Of a DNA stretch of 64,000 nucleotides, positions 55,526 through 64,000 are shown one piece after another. The translations under genes were made by a program, and so were the position numbers. The stretch comes from Delftia tsuruhatensis NBRC 16741 (GTDB lineage: Bacteria > Pseudomonadota > Gammaproteobacteria > Burkholderiales > Burkholderiaceae_C): contig NZ_BCTO01000038.1 in assembly GCF_001571325.1 (NCBI RefSeq), positions 1 through 64,000 of the forward strand, in the 5' to 3' direction. Each line of letters opens with the position of its first letter. The stretch's first letter is position 1. The notes beneath the pieces were generated by a model. The model made no database searches. It was given only the letters and a program-made list of their open reading frames with translations, and had not been told where the DNA came from.

Positions 55526-56563
55526 TCAGGCGTTCAGGTCCAGCACCACGCGCCCTTCGATCTTGCCTTGATGCATGCGCGCGAAGATGTCGTTGATGTT
55601 CTCCAGCCGGTCGGTGGACACGGTGGCCTTGACCTTGCCCATGGCCGCGAAATCCAGCGACTCCTGCAGGTCCAGCCGCGTGCCCACGATGGAGCCGCGC
55701 ACCGTCACGCCGCTGAGCACCATGTTGAAGATGGGCAGCGGGAAGCTGCCGGGCGGCAGGCCGTTGAGCGATACCGTGCCGCCGCGCCGCACCATGCCCA
55801 GCGCCTGCTCGAAGGCCTTGGGCGAGACCGCCGTGACCAGGGCGCCGTGCGCGCCGCCGATCTCCTTTTTCAGGTAGGCCGCAGGGTCCGTGGTCATGGC
55901 ATTGACCGTGACCTGTGCGCCCAGGCGCCGTGCCAGCGCCAGCTTGTCGTCATCCACGTCCACCGCCGCCACGTTCAGGCCCATGGCCTTGGCATATTGC
56001 ACGGCCATGTGGCCCAGGCCGCCGATGCCCGAGATCACCACCCAGTTGCCGGGCTTGGTGTCGGTGACCTTCAGGCCCTTGTAGACCGTGACGCCCGCGC
56101 ACAGCACGGGCGCGATCTCGATCAGGTCCACGCTGCCGGGCAGCAGGCCCACGAAATTGGCATCGGCCAGCGCGTACTGCGCAAAGCCGCCGTTGACGGA
56201 GTAGCCGGTGTTCTTTTGCTGCTCGCACAGCGTCTCCCAGCCACCCAGGCAATGCTCGCAATGGCCGCAGGCCGTGTACAGCCACGGAATGCCCACGCGG
56301 TCGCCCTCCTTCACGTGGGTGACGCCCGCGCCCACGGCGGCCACGTAGCCCACGCCTTCGTGGCCGGGAATGAAGGGCGGATTGGGCTTGGCGGGCCAGT
56401 CGCCCTGCGCCGCGTGCAAATCGGTATGGCAGACGCCGCAGGCCTCGATCTTCACCAGCACATGGCCGGGATCGGGCCTGGGCACCGGGACTTCCTCGAT
56501 GGTGAGCGGCTTGCCAAACTCCCGCACCACGGCGGCCTTCATGGTCCTGTTCATTCGCGCCAT
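55526..56563 (-). CDS. adhP: Zinc-dependent alcohol dehydrogenase (AdhP type)
   Basis: 345 aa. The catalytic Zn ligand region is [16 protein letters not shown] and [12 protein letters not shown]; the structural Zn site is [15 protein letters not shown]. The Rossmann fold has [19 protein letters not shown]. It oxidises primary alcohols such as ethanol or reduces aldehydes with NAD. Start chosen at ATG 56563 ([13 protein letters not shown]); a second Met at MNRTMK is also possible. Confidence 0.95.
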
Positions 56564-56652
56564 CCTTTCTTTGCGTCAAAGTAGGTACAGCATATCAGCG
56601 AAGCGACCTGAACGCCTTGATCAAAATCAGGCCTTGAACCATCAAGGACAAA

Positions 56653-56684
56653 AAAAGCGGGCAAGGAAAACCTTGCCCGCTTTT
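56653..56684 (-). terminator. rimO terminator
   Basis: 14-bp stem AAAAGCGGGCAAGG / CCTTGCCCGCTTTT with an AAAA loop; the T run continues on the minus strand. Confidence 0.9.
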
Positions 56685-56704
56685 CAGGGATGCGAATGCA
56701 GGCC

Positions 56705-58099
56705 TTACACGGGCTGGCCCACCAGGTCGTGGCCCTGCGTGCCCACGATGCGCGCCTTGACGAAGTCGCCCACCTTGTAGGTCTTGCTGGCCTTCTCGGG
56801 CGGCAGCAGGTGCACCAGGCCGTCGATCTCGGGGGCATCGGCATAGCTGCGGCCCACGCCGCCCTTCTTGCCCAGGCCCACGGACTTGTCCACCAGCACC
56901 TGCATGGTCTGGCCCACGCGCTTTTGCAGGCGCGCAGTGGAAACCTCCTCGGCCACGGCCATGAAGCGCGCGCGGCGCTCCTCACGCACTTCGTGGGGCA
57001 GCATGCCGGGAATCTCGTTGGCGGCAGCGCCTTCGACCGGGCTGTAGGCAAAGCAGCCCGCGCGGTCGATCTGCGCCTCGCGCAGGAACTGCAGCAGGTG
57101 CTCGAACTCCTGCTCGGTCTCGCCGGGGAAGCCGGCGATGAAGGTGGAGCGGATCACCAGATCCGGGCAGATCTCGCGCCAGCGCTGCAGGCGCTCCAGG
57201 TTCCTCTCGCCGTTGGCGGGGCGCTTCATGCGCTTCAAGACATCAGGATGGCTGTGCTGGAAGGGCACGTCCAGATAGGGAAGCACGCGGCCCGTGGCCA
57301 TGAACGGAATGATCTCGTCCACGCTGGGGTACGGGTAGACATAGTGCAGGCGCACCCAGGCGCCATAGGGCTCGGCGATCTCGGCCAGCGTCTGCACCAG
57401 TTCGAGCATGCGTGTCTTCACCGGCTTGCCGTCCCAGAAGCCCGTGCGGTACTTCACGTCTACGCCATAGGCCGAGGTGTCCTGGCTGATCACCAGCAGC
57501 TCCTTGACGCCGCCCTCGAACAGCGCGCGCGCCTCCTTGAGCACATCGCCCACCGGACGCGAAACCAGATCGCCGCGCATGGAAGGGATGATGCAGAAGG
57601 TGCAGCGGTGGTTGCAGCCCTCGGAAATCTTCAGATAGGCGTAGTGCCTGGGCGTGAGCTTGATGCCCGCCTCGCCAAAGGCGCCCGGCACCAGGTCGAT
57701 GAAGGGATCGTGCGGCTTGGGCAGATGGGTGTGGACGGCATTCATCACCTCCTGCGTGGCGTGCGGACCGGTCACGGCCAGCACGCTGGGGTGCACTTCC
57801 TGGATCAGGTTGCCGCCATCCTTGCCCGCCTTGGCGCCCAGGCAGCCGGTGACGATGACCTTGCCGTTCTCGGCCAGCGCCTCGCCAATGGTGTCCAGGC
57901 TCTCGCGCACGGCGTCATCGATGAAGCCGCAGGTGTTGACGATCACCAGGTCAGCGCCCTCGAAGGTCTTGGAGGTCTGGTAGCCCTCGGCGCTGAGCTG
58001 GGTAAGGATGAGTTCGGAGTCCGTGAGTGCCTTGGGGCACCCGAGGGATACCATACCTATACGGGGCAGCCGATCCACTTTGACAGCAGTTTCATTCAT
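56705..58099 (-). CDS. rimO: Ribosomal protein S12 methylthiotransferase RimO
   Basis: 464 aa. The N-terminal UPF0004 domain has [25 protein letters not shown] and VTGCLGAK, contributing three Cys to the auxiliary cluster. The radical SAM core has [11 protein letters not shown] (CxxxCxxC), and a TRAM domain closes the protein. It adds a methylthio group to Asp88 of ribosomal protein S12. Its ATG shares a CATG with the serine recombinase ATG, so its original promoter is now on the prophage side. Confidence 0.95.
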
Positions 58100-59756
58100 G
58101 GGAAAAACTTCTAAAGGTCTTGTCTATAGCTACCTGCGGTTCTCGGACCCCAAGCAGTCAACGGGGAGCAGCACGGACAGGCAGCTGGCATACGCGGAAA
58201 AATGGGCCTCAGAGCACGGCCTGCAGCTTGACAGCAGCCTGACCCTCCGCGACGAGGGCCTAAGCGCTTACCACCAGCAGCACATAAAAAGTGGTGCGCT
58301 CGGGGTGTTCCTGCGGGCCGTGGAGGACGGACGTGTACCGCATGGATCTGTGCTGATCGTGGAGGGGCTGGACCGCCTCTCTCGCGCAGAGCCCATCCAG
58401 GCTCAGGCGCAACTGGCCCAGATTGTAAATGCGGGCATCACCGTGGTCACAGCGAGCGACGGAAAGGCCTACAGCCGCACACGGCTCAAAGAAAACCCCA
58501 TGGATCTGGTCTACAGCCTACTGGTGATGATCCGCGCGCACGAAGAAAGCGACACGAAGAGCAAGCGCGTAAAGGCCAGCATCAGGCGTTTGTGCGAGGG
58601 GTGGCAGAACGGCACGTATCGGGGGCATGTGCGCCAGGGACATGACCCCGAATGGGTCAAGGAGGTGGAGAGCGGGTGGGAGATCGACGCCGACCGCGCA
58701 GCCGCCGTGCGCCGGGCCGTTCAGCTGTATGTCCAAGGCCATGGGGGCAAGGGCATCGTGCAGCGCCTCGATGCCGAGGGACTGAAGCTCTACAGCACAT
58801 CGGCCGAGAATAGGACGCCGCAGATCTACCGCCTGTTGAAGATGCCCCAACTGGCCGGCATCAAGCCCGTCGCCATCGATGGCGAGGAGTACCAATTGCG
58901 CGGCTACTACCCCGCCCTACTGAGTGCAGACGAGTGGACCGAGCTACAACGTGTCGCAGCGCAGAGCGGCCGCAGGCGCGTCAAGGGGGATCTGCCGCAT
59001 GTCATCACGGGACTGGGTATCACCATCTGCGGATACTGCGGTCGACCGATGTCCGGCCAGCACCTGGCGACCAAAAATCGCCTGCCAGATGGCCGACTGC
59101 GGGACGGGAATAGGCGCCTGCTCTGCGCCTCGACCGCCGCTTACGGCGGGGGCTGCCCCGTGTCTGGGAGCACCAGTGTGGCACCCGTGGAGCGCGCGAT
59201 CATGTCCTACTGCAGCGACATCGTGAACCTGCAGGCGCTGTACGGGGCAGACCGCAGCCAGGCGCCCCGCGCCCAGGTGGCCGCGGCACGTCAGGAGGTG
59301 GACAAGATCAGCGCCCAGCTCGACAAGCTCACAGATGCGATGCTGGCCAGCGCCGACGAGGGCACGCCGGCAGTCTTCGCTCGGCGCGCTCGCCAGCTGG
59401 AGGTCGAGCTAACCGCAGCTCAAGCCAGGCTGCAGGCGGCTGAACTGGATCTGGCCAGCGCGGCGCGCACAGACATCACTGGCGCCGATGCCGCCTGGCG
59501 CGCGCTGGCCGCTGGCGTGGAGGCACAGGAGATCGAGCCCAGACTGCGGGCCCGCCAACTCGTTGCGGACACTTTTGAGCGCATCGTGGTGTACGCCCGG
59601 GGCGTCAATCCCGACCCCAATGCCTCTGAACGCGACTACAAGATTGACTTAGTGTTGATCGCACGTGGCGGGAGCGCCCGACTGCTGACGTTAGACAGAC
59701 AAGGCAACTGGCTTGCGGGCGAGCAATCCTCCATACCACAAGTTGCTGGATGCTGA
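58098..59756 (+). CDS. Large serine recombinase (site-specific integrase)
   Basis: 552 aa from the ATG at 58098. The resolvase domain has [21 protein letters not shown] (catalytic Ser in FSDPK region), [23 protein letters not shown] and the recombinase helix ([19 protein letters not shown]). A zinc-ribbon ([10 protein letters not shown] ... [16 protein letters not shown]) and a long coiled coil (about 410-480) follow. This is the length and order of phage integrases that recombine attP and attB without cofactors. A GTG/TTG start a little downstream is also possible because no clear Shine-Dalgarno precedes the ATG. Confidence 0.92.
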
Positions 59757-59842
59757 TACCGCTTAGCTCTTAAATTAAAAAAACACACTGAAATATTTTA
59801 ATAAACCATACCAATTAACAAAAAAATAAAATTTCAAACAAA

Positions 59843-61180
59843 CTAATCATTACTACGACAAAGAAAAGCAGACAGCGTTCTTGAAAATTTTTGCATTATT
59901 TCCTCATGGTGATCACAAAGTAGTTTACAGACCTCCTCCGAGGATAGAATTTTCCTTATCCTTGTAAGCTGACCATACAGGGGCTTAGGAAGAAGGGTAT
60001 CACCACCTTCAAATTTATAAGGGAAATCTTCCCGTTTATAAAGAGACCATAGAGCATTCTCAACGTTTTCAATAGGAAGACAGTGCACGTGCTCCCGATT
60101 CGGGCGCCCTGCCTGATCTCCATCTAGAATGCAGATGACATTTTCTTTGGCCCCATAGAATTTGTACTGATGATTGAGTTTCATAAGTGATGTCACGTAA
60201 CCATGGCCACCCGCACAAATAACTTGGTAAGAGTAAAAAGTGGGTGTGCAGTAGCGATTTACAACATACTTAACGAATTGCTCCAACCTCTCGTCTTCAG
60301 TCAGAATATAACGGTCATAACCTTCAAAACCAAACATCAGGCTCTTCACACCGTTAAACGACATATCTGACAGAGTCGTATTTCCTGCTATTCTATCGCG
60401 CTCAAAGTACCGGATTTCCCCGGGCATAAGAGTTTGCATAAGCGCCAGTGAATGACTGCTAAAAACCACTGATGACTTATATCGATCGCAGATTTTTCGC
60501 AACTCCTCAGCGAGCCTTGCCTGCGTACTTGAATCTAATGAGATATCAATTTCATCAATAACAACAAGCTGCTTTCTTTGCGCAATTTTCCGATAAAGAC
60601 TTATTAGAAAATACTCTCCAGAACTGAAATAATCTTCACGAAGATAGCGCTTATCCTCATAAACTATACAACAGCACACCCCTCTACGAAATTCGACTTC
60701 AACGAGATCCTCGAACCTCTGATCTTGGTAAATTGCAGTCAGAAAATCAATCAATTCCTTTGGCTTTTTATATCTACCAATTATGATAGATCGCCGGATC
60801 TCCCCATCTTGCTCCGCTAAGGTTCGAAAGAAAGTAAACCTTTGCCCATGGGGAGCAGGCATTTCAACGGTGGCGATTTTTTTATGATATTCCGGTATAG
60901 GCTTTTTTGTAGATATAGACCGAAGATCAGAGTCATACGCAAATACATGCACCTCCTCCCCAAGGGTATAACGAATAGTGCTTAAAGGATTGAAAACCCC
61001 GTTAGAAGAAGTCTTTACAAAGGTATCTGCCTGCGACAGATTCATAATAGCTTTGGCCAACGTTGTTTTGCCCGCTCCATTTCTCCCTACAAGACAATGA
61101 ATTTTATGTTGAGTGAGATCCAACTCAAATGTCAATTTTGAGATTGGATGAATATTTTCAATTTCAACGCGGAATATCAT
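59843..61180 (-). CDS. ABC/OLD-like ATPase with degenerate TOPRIM-like C-terminus (RT partner)
   Basis: 445 aa. Walker A is VGRNGAGKTT (32-40). The ABC signature is YFSSGEYF near 190, Walker B is LVVIDEIDI near 210, and the H-loop is FSSHS near 245. Residues 312-380 carry a TOPRIM-like stretch: VICAGGHGYVTS at the first strand (the usual Glu replaced), ILDGDQAG (DxD present) and LPIENVENAL as in OLD-type proteins. Nuclease activity is thus doubtful. It ends close to the recombinase and starts 3 bp after the RT stop, so the two are coupled. Likely effector of an RT-based defence unit; AT-rich, so probably acquired. Confidence 0.85.
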   Translation of the reverse strand: MIFRVEIENIHPISKLTFELDLTQHKIHCLVGRNGAGKTTLAKAIMNLSQADTFVKTSSNGVFNPLSTIRYTLGEEVHVFAYDSDLRSISTKKPIPEYHKKIATVEMPAPHGQRFTFFRTLAEQDGEIRRSIIIGRYKKPKELIDFLTAIYQDQRFEDLVEVEFRRGVCCCIVYEDKRYLREDYFSSGEYFLISLYRKIAQRKQLVVIDEIDISLDSSTQARLAEELRKICDRYKSSVVFSSHSLALMQTLMPGEIRYFERDRIAGNTTLSDMSFNGVKSLMFGFEGYDRYILTEDERLEQFVKYVVNRYCTPTFYSYQVICAGGHGYVTSLMKLNHQYKFYGAKENVICILDGDQAGRPNREHVHCLPIENVENALWSLYKREDFPYKFEGGDTLLPKPLYGQLTRIRKILSSEEVCKLLCDHHEEIMQKFSRTLSAFLCRSND

Positions 61181-61183
61181 GAC

Positions 61184-62176
61184 TTAAGAAAAAGAGCGAT
61201 GCAGAAAATAATCAACAACTGTCACGCCAAATTTTCTCCGAAGCTTATCAAGATATGATTGATCAATTGTATTCACGTAATTAATAAGACCAGAGAGTCG
61301 TGCCTCTGCTTTTCGCGTGTCACCATCAACCTTATCAGCGAACTTGCTTCTGTCATGCAAATAAAAATGAATCAATACTTCTATTTCATCTTTCACATTT
61401 GCATCCACCGACACTTTTCCATTCGGCAATAACACCATACCAAGCAGCTTGATCTTTACACCACTATGCAGAAGCCTAGATTTTCCATAATGCAAAGAAA
61501 AATCACCCCCCATAGTATCGTGAAGACAATGACTCACAATGGCTTCAATCCCCTGAATCGCTTCAGAATTTCTTGAAGAAATTATTATGTCATCCGAATA
61601 TCGCGTAAACTCCAAGCCCTCACCGAGAGCATACGCATGAAAGGCATTATCGAAATCCAATAGCACTGAATTACTAATTACCGGAGAAGTTGAAAATCCC
61701 TGCGGCAAACCGGAATCAGTGCAAACAAGATCTAAAATTCTTTCAATAACGGATTCCAGGTCCTCGATAGGACAACATTCCTTTGCTCTAAGCAGAGCAG
61801 TTCTTATACGGTCACGTTTAATACTCGGGAAAAAATTTGCAATGTCACAAACAAAGAAGGACTTGCTTGCCGCATGCTTTATAACTGCGTCGTAAGCACT
61901 CATGCCTTTTCGGTATGAAAAGACTACATCTTCATTGAACGGAAGAAAATCCAACAAAAACAATCTCAAAAACTCATGAAAGCTCTTAAGTTTTTCGCTA
62001 GGCACCAGTAGATTCCGAGTTCTTCCACCGTGAGTAAAAGACTTGGAAATAGTGTTTGTTTGTACCGACGCACTAACAAAATCCCCAAAGCTCCATTTCC
62101 CATGGAACATAGCTTCAAACAGGACATCGATGCGCTGCTTCTTGATCGAAAATTGAGGAGTAGGTTGGGTAGACAT
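61184..62176 (-). CDS. Retron-like reverse transcriptase (divergent)
   Basis: 330 aa from the ATG at 62176 (MSTQPTPQFSIKKQRI); a start at 62224 would add 16 hydrophobic residues and has its GGAG touching the ATG. RT motifs: SFFVCDIANFFPSI (motif A with Asp), GLPQGFSTSPVISN (motif B), RYSDDIIISS (YxDD, here YSDD) and KIKLLGMVL after it. Retron hallmarks are weakened: AVIKH in place of NAxxH and LLG in place of VTG. It is about the length of retron RTs. Coupled to an ATPase gene and preceded by a structured element (62265-62327), it most likely makes a multicopy single-stranded DNA. Confidence 0.88.
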   Translation of the reverse strand: MSTQPTPQFSIKKQRIDVLFEAMFHGKWSFGDFVSASVQTNTISKSFTHGGRTRNLLVPSEKLKSFHEFLRLFLLDFLPFNEDVVFSYRKGMSAYDAVIKHAASKSFFVCDIANFFPSIKRDRIRTALLRAKECCPIEDLESVIERILDLVCTDSGLPQGFSTSPVISNSVLLDFDNAFHAYALGEGLEFTRYSDDIIISSRNSEAIQGIEAIVSHCLHDTMGGDFSLHYGKSRLLHSGVKIKLLGMVLLPNGKVSVDANVKDEIEVLIHFYLHDRSKFADKVDGDTRKAEARLSGLINYVNTIDQSYLDKLRRKFGVTVVDYFLHRSFS

Positions 62177-62264
62177 AGCAAGAAATTTTTTGTACACTAT
62201 ACCCATGTCAACGACCAGGAGCATCTCCGGTCGCTAGTCACTGACTAAAGTTGACCTCTAGGCC

Positions 62265-62327
62265 GTCTGATCTACTTGTGTGGCGTACTGTTCAGTACGC
62301 CACACAAGCTGTAGAGTCCACTCAGAC
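62265..62327 (-). ncRNA. Structured element upstream of RT (candidate retron msr-msd part)
   Basis: A continuous strand 62265-62289 pairs with 62294-62327 in three helices: 15 bp (CTTGTGTGGCGTACT / AGTACGCCACACAAG), 4 bp and 6 bp (GTCTGA / TCAGAC), with 3-nt and 6-nt bulges on one side, loop GTTC. All 25 pairs are perfect. No U tract follows, so it is not a normal terminator. It lies 89 bp before the RT start, where retron ncRNAs are found. A second dyad TAGTCA-C-TGACTA (62235-62247) lies between. Confidence 0.6.
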
Positions 62328-62353
62328 CCGCGCCCCCCTTCTCCCGCCTTACA

Positions 62354-62746
62354 TCACCGCTGCGCTGAACGCGCTCGCTTACCGGAGCAGGCTCTGCTGC
62401 TTTTGATTGGTGACGCCTTGTGGTTAGGAAGATTGCATCCCGATGCCGGCATCAAAGGCACGCTCGCAGGCACCGCCCCGGGCACGGGCGTTGTCAGCAA
62501 TGCGCGCCAGCGCTCCCGCTCGCTCGTCAGCGCGGCGCTGCAGCTCGGCGAGCAGATCGAGGGCGCCGGTGTCTGGCGCGCACTGTCCGGCAGAGGCGCG
62601 AGCATTGGCGGCCGCACGATGGGCGGTGATGTAGTCGGCGAGGTCGCCGCGCAGCCGGCCAGCAGCAGCGCGGGCAGCGTCAGCATCGGCAGCAGCACGA
62701 GCTTGTGCCTGGCCCGCCTCGCGGGTGATGGCGTCGAGGTTTTCAC
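62354..62746 (-). CDS. Outer-membrane spanin lipoprotein (Rz1-like), prophage 2
   Basis: 130 aa from a GTG at 62746 with AAGGGA 6 bp upstream. A basic start (VKTSTPSPARRARHK) and hydrophobic core lead to the lipobox LLLAGC (Cys at residue 32), followed by Pro-rich AATSPTTSPPIVRPPM. It overlaps most of Rz in another frame and extends beyond its stop. It would be an outer-membrane lipoprotein partner of Rz. Confidence 0.75.
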   Translation of the reverse strand: MKTSTPSPARRARHKLVLLPMLTLPALLLAGCAATSPTTSPPIVRPPMLAPLPDSARQTPAPSICSPSCSAALTSERERWRALLTTPVPGAVPASVPLMPASGCNLPNHKASPIKSSRACSGKRARSAQR

Positions 62747-62948
62747 GGTAGGTCCCTTCCAGTTTTCGATATCGCTCGGAGGTTTCAGCGGCCGCTGCAG
62801 CTGCAGCCGCGCGCTCGGTCGCCAGGTCGGCGCGGGCCTTGTCGGCCGCACGCAGTGCAACTTGGTGCGCCAGGCCTTGCCACAGCAGCAGTGCGGCCAG
62901 CACCAGGACCAGGAGCTGCCAGGCGCGGGATTTAAGGAGGGTCAGCAT
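62424..62948 (-). CDS. Inner-membrane spanin (Rz-like), prophage 2
   Basis: 174 aa. One N-terminal membrane segment (QLLVLVLAALLLWQGLAHQVAL, about 11-32) and a long Ala-rich coiled coil (KARADLATERAAAAAAAAETSERY) fit the i-spanin/DUF2514 type. It follows the endolysin by 1 bp and holds Rz1 in another frame. It is distinct in sequence from the prophage 1 Rz. Confidence 0.85.
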   Translation of the reverse strand: MLTLLKSRAWQLLVLVLAALLLWQGLAHQVALRAADKARADLATERAAAAAAAAETSERYRKLEGTYRENLDAITREAGQAQARAAADADAARAAAGRLRGDLADYITAHRAAANARASAGQCAPDTGALDLLAELQRRADERAGALARIADNARARGGACERAFDAGIGMQSS

Positions 62949-63398
62949 CTAGACCTCCTGAATGCCCATTAGGGTGTTTTTTCCGCTGACGGTGATCACG
63001 CGGTTGACGGGCTTGTCCGGCGTGCGCGTGGACAAGTGCACCCAGCGCTTGCCCCCCACGGACTCATAGATGATTTGCCCGATGCCCAGCGCGTTGACAT
63101 GCGGGGCCAGGGCCTTGGCGACGGCATACGGCGCTCCGTAGCTGGGTGCCACGATGTCAGCGGCCGCGCCGATGGCGTGATCGCTGCTGGTGACACCGCC
63201 CACGGCCGCATTGACGGCGCGCGAGCGATAGCCGCTGGTCACGATGATGGGAACGCCCAGGTGCGCACGTACGCGCTCCAGCATCGCGGCCGTGAGTGCC
63301 AGGCGCTGCAGAGCCTCGGGCGTTGGCATGTTGTCCAGTCCCAGGCGCTGTGCCGTGGCGCTGGCAGTGAGTTCGGCCAAGCTGAAATGGGGAGTCAT
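62949..63398 (-). CDS. M15 family peptidase endolysin
   Basis: 149 aa. Zn ligands and active site of M15 D,D-peptidases: VTSGYRSRAVN with SDHAIGAAADIV (His/Asp) and KRWVHLST (His near the end). It cuts the peptide cross-bridge of peptidoglycan. No signal peptide, so release depends on the holin. It overlaps the holin stop by 4 bp. Confidence 0.92.
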   Translation of the reverse strand: MTPHFSLAELTASATAQRLGLDNMPTPEALQRLALTAAMLERVRAHLGVPIIVTSGYRSRAVNAAVGGVTSSDHAIGAAADIVAPSYGAPYAVAKALAPHVNALGIGQIIYESVGGKRWVHLSTRTPDKPVNRVITVSGKNTLMGIQEV

Positions 63399-63721
63399 AC
63401 AGCACCCCCATCCTTTGGCGGCAGACCCAGGCGCTTACGCACCCACTCATTGAGCAGCGGCCCGAGTGCGAACTGATCCCACGCCCGGAACACCCAGTCG
63501 GCCGCAGTCATCGAGAACATGCCGACGACGAAGCCGGCCAGCCCCTCGGAAAGGCCTGTCGCCACCACGAAGTCAGGCGTACCGTAGTTGCTCGCCGCTA
63601 TCCCGAGCACCAACATTGCACCCTTACGGGGCCATGTACCTTGCATCCACATAAGCGCTCCTGCACTGCCGAGAATCCCCGGCACTTTGGGTAGAAGTTG
63701 ATCGAACCAGTTGTTGTCCAT
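63395..63721 (-). CDS. Putative holin, prophage 2
   Basis: 108 aa from the ATG at 63721 (GGAGG site). Hydrophobic segments lie near residues 15-50 (VPGILGSAGALMWMQGTW, MLVLGIAAS) and 60-80 (GLAGFVVGMFSMTAADW), with a basic C-terminal tail (RKRLGLPPKD). Two to three TM segments and position before the endolysin support the holin call. Confidence 0.75.
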   Translation of the reverse strand: MDNNWFDQLLPKVPGILGSAGALMWMQGTWPRKGAMLVLGIAASNYGTPDFVVATGLSEGLAGFVVGMFSMTAADWVFRAWDQFALGPLLNEWVRKRLGLPPKDGGAV

Positions 63722-63740
63722 GTGCCCTCCTCCGGGCATG

Positions 63741-63762
63741 AAAAAACCCGCCGAGGCGGGTT
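63741..63762 (-). terminator. Terminator upstream of the prophage 2 holin gene
   Basis: On the minus strand AACCCGCC / GGCGGGTT with a two-base loop and a TTTTTT tail. It would end the tail-operon transcript before the lysis genes or act as an attenuator. Confidence 0.75.
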
Positions 63763-63786
63763 GTGATGGGATCGCGCTGCACACTG

Positions 63787-64000
63787 CTACTGGGCAGCCG
63801 CGTAGTCGAATAGCTCGCCGAGCCGTTGAGTGATATTGAGTGCCTGTGCGAGCATCAGCACCGTGGGACTGTCGTGCTCGATGTATGCGGCACCCTGCCA
63901 GTCGATTTGTGTCCTGTAGCGTGCGTTCTCGTCTTGCTCTGCATCAATGACGGCCAGCAGATCGGCCTCCTTGATTCCGCACAGGTCCCACAGCGCAAGC
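63787..64000 (-). CDS. Phage protein, C-terminal end only
   Basis: The last 70 codons are visible (from LALWDLCGIKEADLLAV to LFDYAAAQ at the stop). Soluble, helical and acidic. The remainder lies beyond the window. Probably a tail-region or host-range accessory protein of prophage 2; family not recognised. Confidence 0.6.
   Translation of the reverse strand, partial: LALWDLCGIKEADLLAVIDAEQDENARYRTQIDWQGAAYIEHDSPTVLMLAQALNITQRLGELFDYAAAQ

Follow-up and report, generated by a model that had tools for sequence, protein, structure and literature searches.

A probable type I-B retron in a Delftia tsuruhatensis prophage with its ncRNA element encoded opposite the reverse transcriptase gene

A reverse transcriptase (RT) gene, an OLD-like effector gene and a structured ncRNA element were found side by side in Delftia tsuruhatensis NBRC 16741, within the stretch of 64,000 nucleotides analyzed here (contig NZ_BCTO01000038.1, positions 1 to 64,000; hereafter the window). 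The element lies on the plus strand, opposite the RT, and a promoter-like sequence precedes it. Most likely, the locus is a type I-B retron that is complete, follows the gene order of I-B1 and travels as cargo of the prophage; its divergently encoded ncRNA would act in the way proposed below.

Both protein genes are located on the minus strand, the RT at 61184-62224 (346 aa as called) and the ATPase at 59843-61180 (445 aa). Both frames are open, and a gap of 3 bp (61181-61183) separates them. The GC content was 0.38-0.43 in 500-base windows within 59750-62249 and 0.60-0.69 just beyond the edges of this island. A serine integrase flanks the island on one side, and a DUF2514 protein and an M15 peptidase, both lysis-type genes, flank it on the other. 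The earlier note, made from the sequence alone, had reported this AT-rich pair, its spacing and its position between integrase and lysis genes, and the coordinates and GC values agreed with that report. The pair is prophage cargo. An IMG/VR record of the same prophage (L005, IMGVR_UViG_2839144908_000010) stops at the RT, so the predicted prophage boundary excludes the effector and the integrase.

The RT was assigned by PADLOC to the family RT_I-B with 381 bits, and the next family reached 148 bits. The motifs named in the earlier note were recovered as YSDD, which is the active site, LPQGFSTSP (for QGxSTSP) and FFPSI, and the catalytic residues were invariant across 40 aligned RTs. Retron RTs usually carry the signatures NAxxH and VTG. 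The window RT has AVIKH and LLG instead, from which a distinct lineage had been suggested. Identical forms were present in 23 of 23 aligned relatives (D112, V114, H117, L260, L261 and G262 invariant), so the two departures are family-wide and do not mark a new lineage; the suggestion was abandoned.

The fold of the RT was compared with solved structures using an AlphaFold model (pLDDT 90.1). A grouping with group II introns or with DGR RTs, which had been named as the outcome that would speak against a retron, was not observed in Foldseek searches of the PDB. Ranks 1-18 were all retron RTs, and group II, DGR and DRT RTs came afterwards, with the first group II RT at rank 19 and the first DGR structure at rank 26. 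The best solved fold was the RT of Retron-Eco7 (Ec78, type I-A; ranks 1-2, TM 0.74-0.75 by query), although its identity to the window RT is only about 20-21% and its effector is PtuA/PtuB rather than a single OLD protein. When an RT profile was run against PDB sequences, 14 of the 15 ranked above the first group II RT were retron RTs, the remaining one being a CART-CAPP RT, and the DGR entry 8ub7 scored 31 bits versus 64-93 bits for most retron RTs.

The effector combines an ABC ATPase with a TOPRIM part. It matched the PADLOC model ATPase-Toprim_I-B at full length (579 bits over residues 1-441), and a second PADLOC ATPase-Toprim_I-B model gave 36 bits. Walker A, the SSGE signature, the DEID Walker B, the H-loop, E295/D296 and DGD at 353-355 were invariant or nearly so among 44 effector sequences. 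Foldseek with the predicted model (pLDDT 89.2) returned the T. scotoductus OLD at the top (TM 0.32 by query), and retron PtuA, the Eco8 OLD and GajA were also among the matches (TM 0.3-0.4 by query). Pfam reported ATPase families, with no TOPRIM entry among the 25 matches listed, and the 50 rows listed by VIA-align covered the ATPase domain, without any OLD, and were uninformative on the TOPRIM part. The TOPRIM reading is based on PADLOC, on the conserved acidic residues and on the OLD match. Since both proteins were placed in PADLOC I-B by a wide margin, the earlier proposal of an Eco8 relative with an OLD-like ATPase/TOPRIM effector was upheld.

The ncRNA element extends over 62205-62327 on the plus strand, with an approximate 3' end, and sits mostly outside the coordinates of the earlier note (59843-62224). 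It opens with ATGYCA or a similar sequence and continues through GACYAGGAGYATCTCCRGTC and the linker CTCTA to a long hairpin. In the window, the msr-like part (62207-62255) consists of P1, which pairs GTCAAC (62207-62212) with GTTGAC (62250-62255), and of P2 (62213-62232), which P1 encloses. A linker conserved in the alignment of the eight opposite-strand loci, CCTCTAGGCCGTCTGA (62255-62270), leads into the hairpin at 62271-62315, the msd candidate. The base of this hairpin is TCTAC/GTAGA, and its 16-bp stem (62275-62290 with 62293-62308) is perfectly paired; it was recovered both as an inverted repeat and in the consensus fold of the eight loci. When sequences were folded singly, 27 loci gave hairpins with 14-33 pairs. 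The 20-nt motif, with at most 2 mismatches, occurred once in the 64-kb window, where 0.01 occurrences were expected.

The P1/P2 structure was examined in 21 distinct sequences. Pairing was kept in 99.3% of cells, and two-sided changes were found in 6 pairs and 24 cells. Four of five measures were equalled in 0-3 of 500 shuffles, and the fifth, further pair types, in 221 of 500. Slid versions of the structure contained 0-3 cells with two-sided changes. Kinship among sequences can beat such shuffles, so most weight is given to the slide control and to how many pairs have changed. The distance from P2 to the 3' side of P1 is 17 nt in the window (62233-62249) and about 5-6 nt in most relatives.

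Pairing of the first 12 nt with the 40 nt past the hairpin (a1/a2) was found at a level reached by at most 2 of 200 shuffles in 2 of 27 loci, with L007 excluded. The G of the initial ATG varies, being replaced in the ATA of L060, L061, L063, L073, L081 and L082, and because it is not conserved it does not stand out as the priming G. Caution over canonical priming is warranted because neither a clear a1/a2 pairing nor a conserved G at the RNA start was found. A terminator search gave hits in 3 of the 8 window-clade loci, so that no terminator is conserved. No Rfam family matched the element, either at E 5 in the region 56000-64000 or at E 0.05 in five relatives.

The strand of the element was determined with a covariance model, R1, trained on 14 loci with the element on the RT strand and on none with the opposite layout. 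Among loci outside the training set, the window and seven relatives were matched on the strand opposite the RT in 8 of 8 cases. The single match in the window was 62205-62268 on the plus strand (32.3 bits, E 4.9e-8). Four plasmid relatives were matched on the RT strand, as were four later genome loci with filters off. None of 7 other RT loci was matched, nor was L054; L054, L058 and L059 gave nothing convincing with filters off, and a weak extra match in L006 (6690-6739, E 0.27) was taken as chance. The element is present in 30 of 31 RT-bearing loci, 8 with the opposite-strand and 22 with the same-strand layout; the one-strand cassette of ncRNA and RT is found in these 22 and is absent from the window and its seven relatives. 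A covariance search for an msr-msd element had been proposed in the earlier note. An element does stand beside the RT, but on the opposite strand; that note had not seen it, and it is what is most unusual about the locus. L054 (genome G451) carries an RT (39%) and effector pair with no detectable element within 4.3 kb.

A putative sigma-70-like promoter for the ncRNA was found at 62170-62198 on the plus strand, with a -35 box TAGACA (62170-62175), a 17-bp spacer and a -10 box TACACT (62193-62198). On the minus strand, the start codon of the RT shares bases with the putative -35 box. This site was the sole sigma-70-like site in a separate scan of 62050-62450 (shuffle mean 0.2). After the spacing had been spotted by eye, promoters were scored in 28 loci (8 opposite, 20 same), and -10 boxes were accepted if they ended at a distance of 5-8 nt ahead of the element. 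The -10 end was 6 nt from the element in 27 of the 28 loci, in both orientations, and 5 nt in L064, where the element start is shifted by one base. Mean scores out of a maximum of 12 were 9.1 for the opposite-strand and 8.3 for the same-strand loci, and shuffles averaged 5.5 (sd 1.2). Weak promoters were observed in three same-strand loci, L048, L082 and L083, where 345, 92 and 119 of 500 shuffles were as good. On the RT strand of the 8 window-clade loci no site stood out, as between 4 and 96 of 100 shuffles reached the score of the best one. Using RT starts that we picked from conserved starts, the ncRNA start and the RT start are 28 bp apart in three of these loci (the window, L003 and L006) and 45-75 bp apart in the remaining five. 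As a speculation, a TTGACA might give a near-leaderless RT mRNA in L001, L003 and L006.

Other signals of strand were mixed. G-U versus A-C cells numbered 5 vs 0 in the window clade and 5 vs 0 in the same-strand loci, which favours the element strand; the window-clade figure is 8 listed cells minus 3 misaligned ones (columns 9/48 in L008, L010 and L056), and the five derive from at least three events. By folding energy, the element strand gave the more stable hairpin side in 18 of the 20 same-strand loci and in 5 of the 8 from the window clade; for P1/P2 it was the more stable strand in 10 of the 20 and 3 of the 8, respectively. The strand was therefore called from the directional sequence, the R1 matches and the promoter, and not from energy.

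From these features we infer the following course. The promoter at 62170-62198 would drive a structured RNA from about 62205, and the RT, whose gene is on the opposite strand, would bind P1/P2 and copy the hairpin into msDNA, starting from a priming base of the RNA. By analogy with Eco8, RT, msDNA and effector would be expected to form an inactive complex. A phage factor, which in Eco8 is SSB acting on msDNA, could then free the TOPRIM nuclease, and the freed nuclease would degrade DNA so that the infection aborts.

The mixed strand signals bear on an unlikely alternative, in which the RT strand would supply the working ncRNA, as in other retrons, and the plus-strand element would be no more than its mirror image or an antisense regulator. 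In its favour, the perfect stem can fold on both strands and the P1/P2 energies show no preference for the element strand; yet it is only in the plus-strand reading that the directional letters agree with the RT-strand RNA of the relatives, the sole R1 match in the window lies on that strand, the promoter-like site travels with the element, and the G-U cells of the window clade lean the same way. Quite unlikely, too, is that the locus is no retron in the strict sense and is instead an RT-effector system whose ncRNA is primed or used otherwise, in a DRT-like manner. The AVIKH and LLG forms and the unclear a1/a2 pairing could be read in that way, and the best NCBIfam model, the St85 retron RT, reached 169 bits, under its cut-off of 235. 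Against this, the retron families of PADLOC scored highest, retron RTs prevailed among the PDB sequences ahead of the first group II RT, and the DRT models gave at most 45 bits (Drt3a 45, Drt2 39, Drt4 18) against cut-offs of 200, 390 and 450; the group II intron RT model gave 59 bits against a cut-off of 300.

That the pair is decayed cargo without function seems highly improbable. Defects do occur among the relatives, since about 136 N-terminal residues of the L057 effector were unmatched and the effector match of L050 came in two pieces. These effectors are possibly damaged copies, so functionality is not required of every copy. In the window, however, the frames are open and the catalytic residues intact, and the gene pairing and the RNA persist down to about 32% RT identity.

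Within the preferred reading of a divergently encoded retron, a more far-reaching version can be drawn, though we regard it as doubtful: the promoter and ncRNA would form a module that is a gene of its own, reversed once and now antisense to the RT leader, so that production of the template RNA and production of the two proteins would disturb or control one another; the RNA, having no 5' a1 repeat, would be primed in a way undescribed for retrons. If the ncRNA of this clade is indeed reversed and separately promoted, a template RNA can function when encoded as a separate gene, would lie across from the beginning of the RT gene that it serves, and would escape searches confined to the RT strand.

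The history of the layout was examined in a tree of 29 RTs, which predates the finding of L081-L084. The 8 opposite-strand loci formed one side of a branch with support 88/81, also present in 87% of 200 bootstrap trees, and the same-strand loci were spread over several other branches. The plasmid relatives, unlabelled at the tree stage, later proved to be same-strand, and L061-L063 branch outside the rest. The simplest history is a single old reversal of promoter and RNA from a same-strand ancestor, with moderate support; two reversal events instead of one might also account for the tree. The genome loci of the opposite-strand group all came from the order of the window. Both layouts occur within that order and even within one family, as for L055 and L081 in family f4 and L057 and L082 in family f8.

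A usual retron is a polycistronic cassette with msr-msd ahead of the RT on one strand (PMC6868368). Type I-B1 (class 3B OLD) is described as RT followed by OLD (PMC10568477). The window resembles it in having an RT followed by an OLD-like ATPase/TOPRIM protein, an ncRNA beside the RT and PADLOC I-B assignments for both proteins, whereas the ncRNA of the window clade lies opposite the RT with its own promoter-like site; the I-B1 type compared here is that of PMC10568477. Retron-Eco8 belongs to type I-B2, where OLD is upstream of the RT (PMC10568477). It shares with the window a retron RT and an OLD effector, and a complex with msDNA is likely in the window as well, but the Eco8 OLD is a 734-residue chain as opposed to 445 residues, the gene order is reversed, and the similarity to the second PADLOC ATPase-Toprim_I-B model is low (36 bits). 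Eco8 msDNA contains IRa1/IRa2 and two DNA stem-loops (PMC12887533), in contrast to the one long hairpin without clear a1/a2 seen here. Eco8 has been described as a 4:4:4 RT-msDNA-OLD complex triggered by phage SSB (PMC12887533, PMC13158370). No I-B1 complex was found among solved structures when the PDB was searched by sequence, and the effector is small (445 aa); the family would therefore lend itself to studying the restraint that msDNA exerts on an OLD nuclease.

A deviation from the arrangement on one strand has been reported for Retron-Sen1 (Se72), in which msd is transcribed in both directions and double-stranded DNA was described (PMC6868368); in the window, instead, the whole element and its promoter-like site are reversed. 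No description of a retron ncRNA opposite its RT was found in the literature searched, including the available text of PMC6868368 and PMC12548924; the original I-B1 classification (Mestre 2020) and the PADLOC ncRNA models lay outside that search. Such absence is weak evidence, and reversed ncRNAs may already stand in supplements. PADLOC includes ncRNA covariance models (PMC9252829), and the one-strand layout is not part of its protein definition.

The reversed element also affects the annotation of the RT gene. Translation probably starts at Met17 (codon 62174-62176), giving a protein of 330 aa at 61184-62176; this start is likelier because the first 16 residues of the called frame are encoded antisense to the 5' end of the ncRNA and to its putative promoter. 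The search returned 504 RT homologues at E <= 0.001, and among the 120 listed, 26 carried an MLLVVD-like N-terminal extension (records P0002-P0016 and others), which in the window corresponds to 62177-62224. Among 12 other long RT homologues listed, 10 start with M.IVY or M.VVY ahead of the usual MST. MLLVVD is the antisense translation of the 5' end of the element, and IVY that of its -10 region. The MLLVVD-like extensions are thus probably antisense ncRNA read as protein through misannotated start sites, and the extended RT records would, on the same reasoning, have the reversed layout.

The 31 distinct RT-bearing loci comprise the window, 7 like it, the 14 used to train R1, the 4 on plasmids, the 4 later genome loci and L054. 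An OLD-like ATPase lies downstream of the RT in 30 of them, and the contig of L073 ends inside or just past its RT. The possibility raised earlier, that the ATPase is associated elsewhere with other genes only, was thereby set aside. PADLOC I-B was also the best assignment for 6 RT relatives and 4 ATPase relatives tested as examples. Duplicates were counted once (e.g., the window equals L005, L009, L038, L053 and L065; L006 equals L039 and L070; L043 equals L044, L046 and L047). L042 and L050, close to L041, are absent from the promoter and tree work. L058 and L059 were left out as having an OLD-like ATPase at E <= 1e-40 and no RT match, and L067 and L075 as having the 20-nt motif and no RT or ATPase match.

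Among 399 genomes of the family, RT_I-B exceeded 370 bits in 3, the own genome included, and some RT match at E <= 0.001 was present in 146, mostly to other RTs. The effector was detected at E <= 1e-40 in 6 of 399 genomes of the order, 2 of 369 of the class, 4 of 398 of the phylum, and 2 of 200 and 2 of 195 of two other families; these counts take in the own genome, one centre genome already known, and two genomes, one of them counted twice, whose loci L058 and L059 show no RT. None of 50,697 phage records matched at 1e-20, IMG/VR contigs yielded 15 loci with the family alignment, and 10 public plasmids matched at 1e-30 with 32-40% identity. The relatives from the plasmid search included L060 of Alteromonas, which neighbours an integrase and a gene cluster for mercury resistance, L061 of Serratia on a 7-kb plasmid, L062 of Klebsiella on a conjugative IncFIB plasmid, and L063 of Proteus.

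The serine integrase, a neighbour outside the retron, lies at 58008-59756 on the plus strand, with a possible start at 58098, and matched Pfam Resolvase, Recombinase and Zn_ribbon_recom. Its frame, from either start, overlaps the start of a minus-strand gene at 56705-58099, which we take to be RimO-like. With a start at 58098, the start codons of the two genes overlap, which suggests insertion at the 5' end of the RimO-like gene. Downstream of that gene, near its 3' end, a strong hairpin followed by a T run was observed at 56615-56685 on the minus strand. The Rfam family RF01730 (Termite-leu) remained below threshold at this site (28.6 bits versus a cut-off of 51), and the hairpin with its T run looks like an intrinsic terminator.
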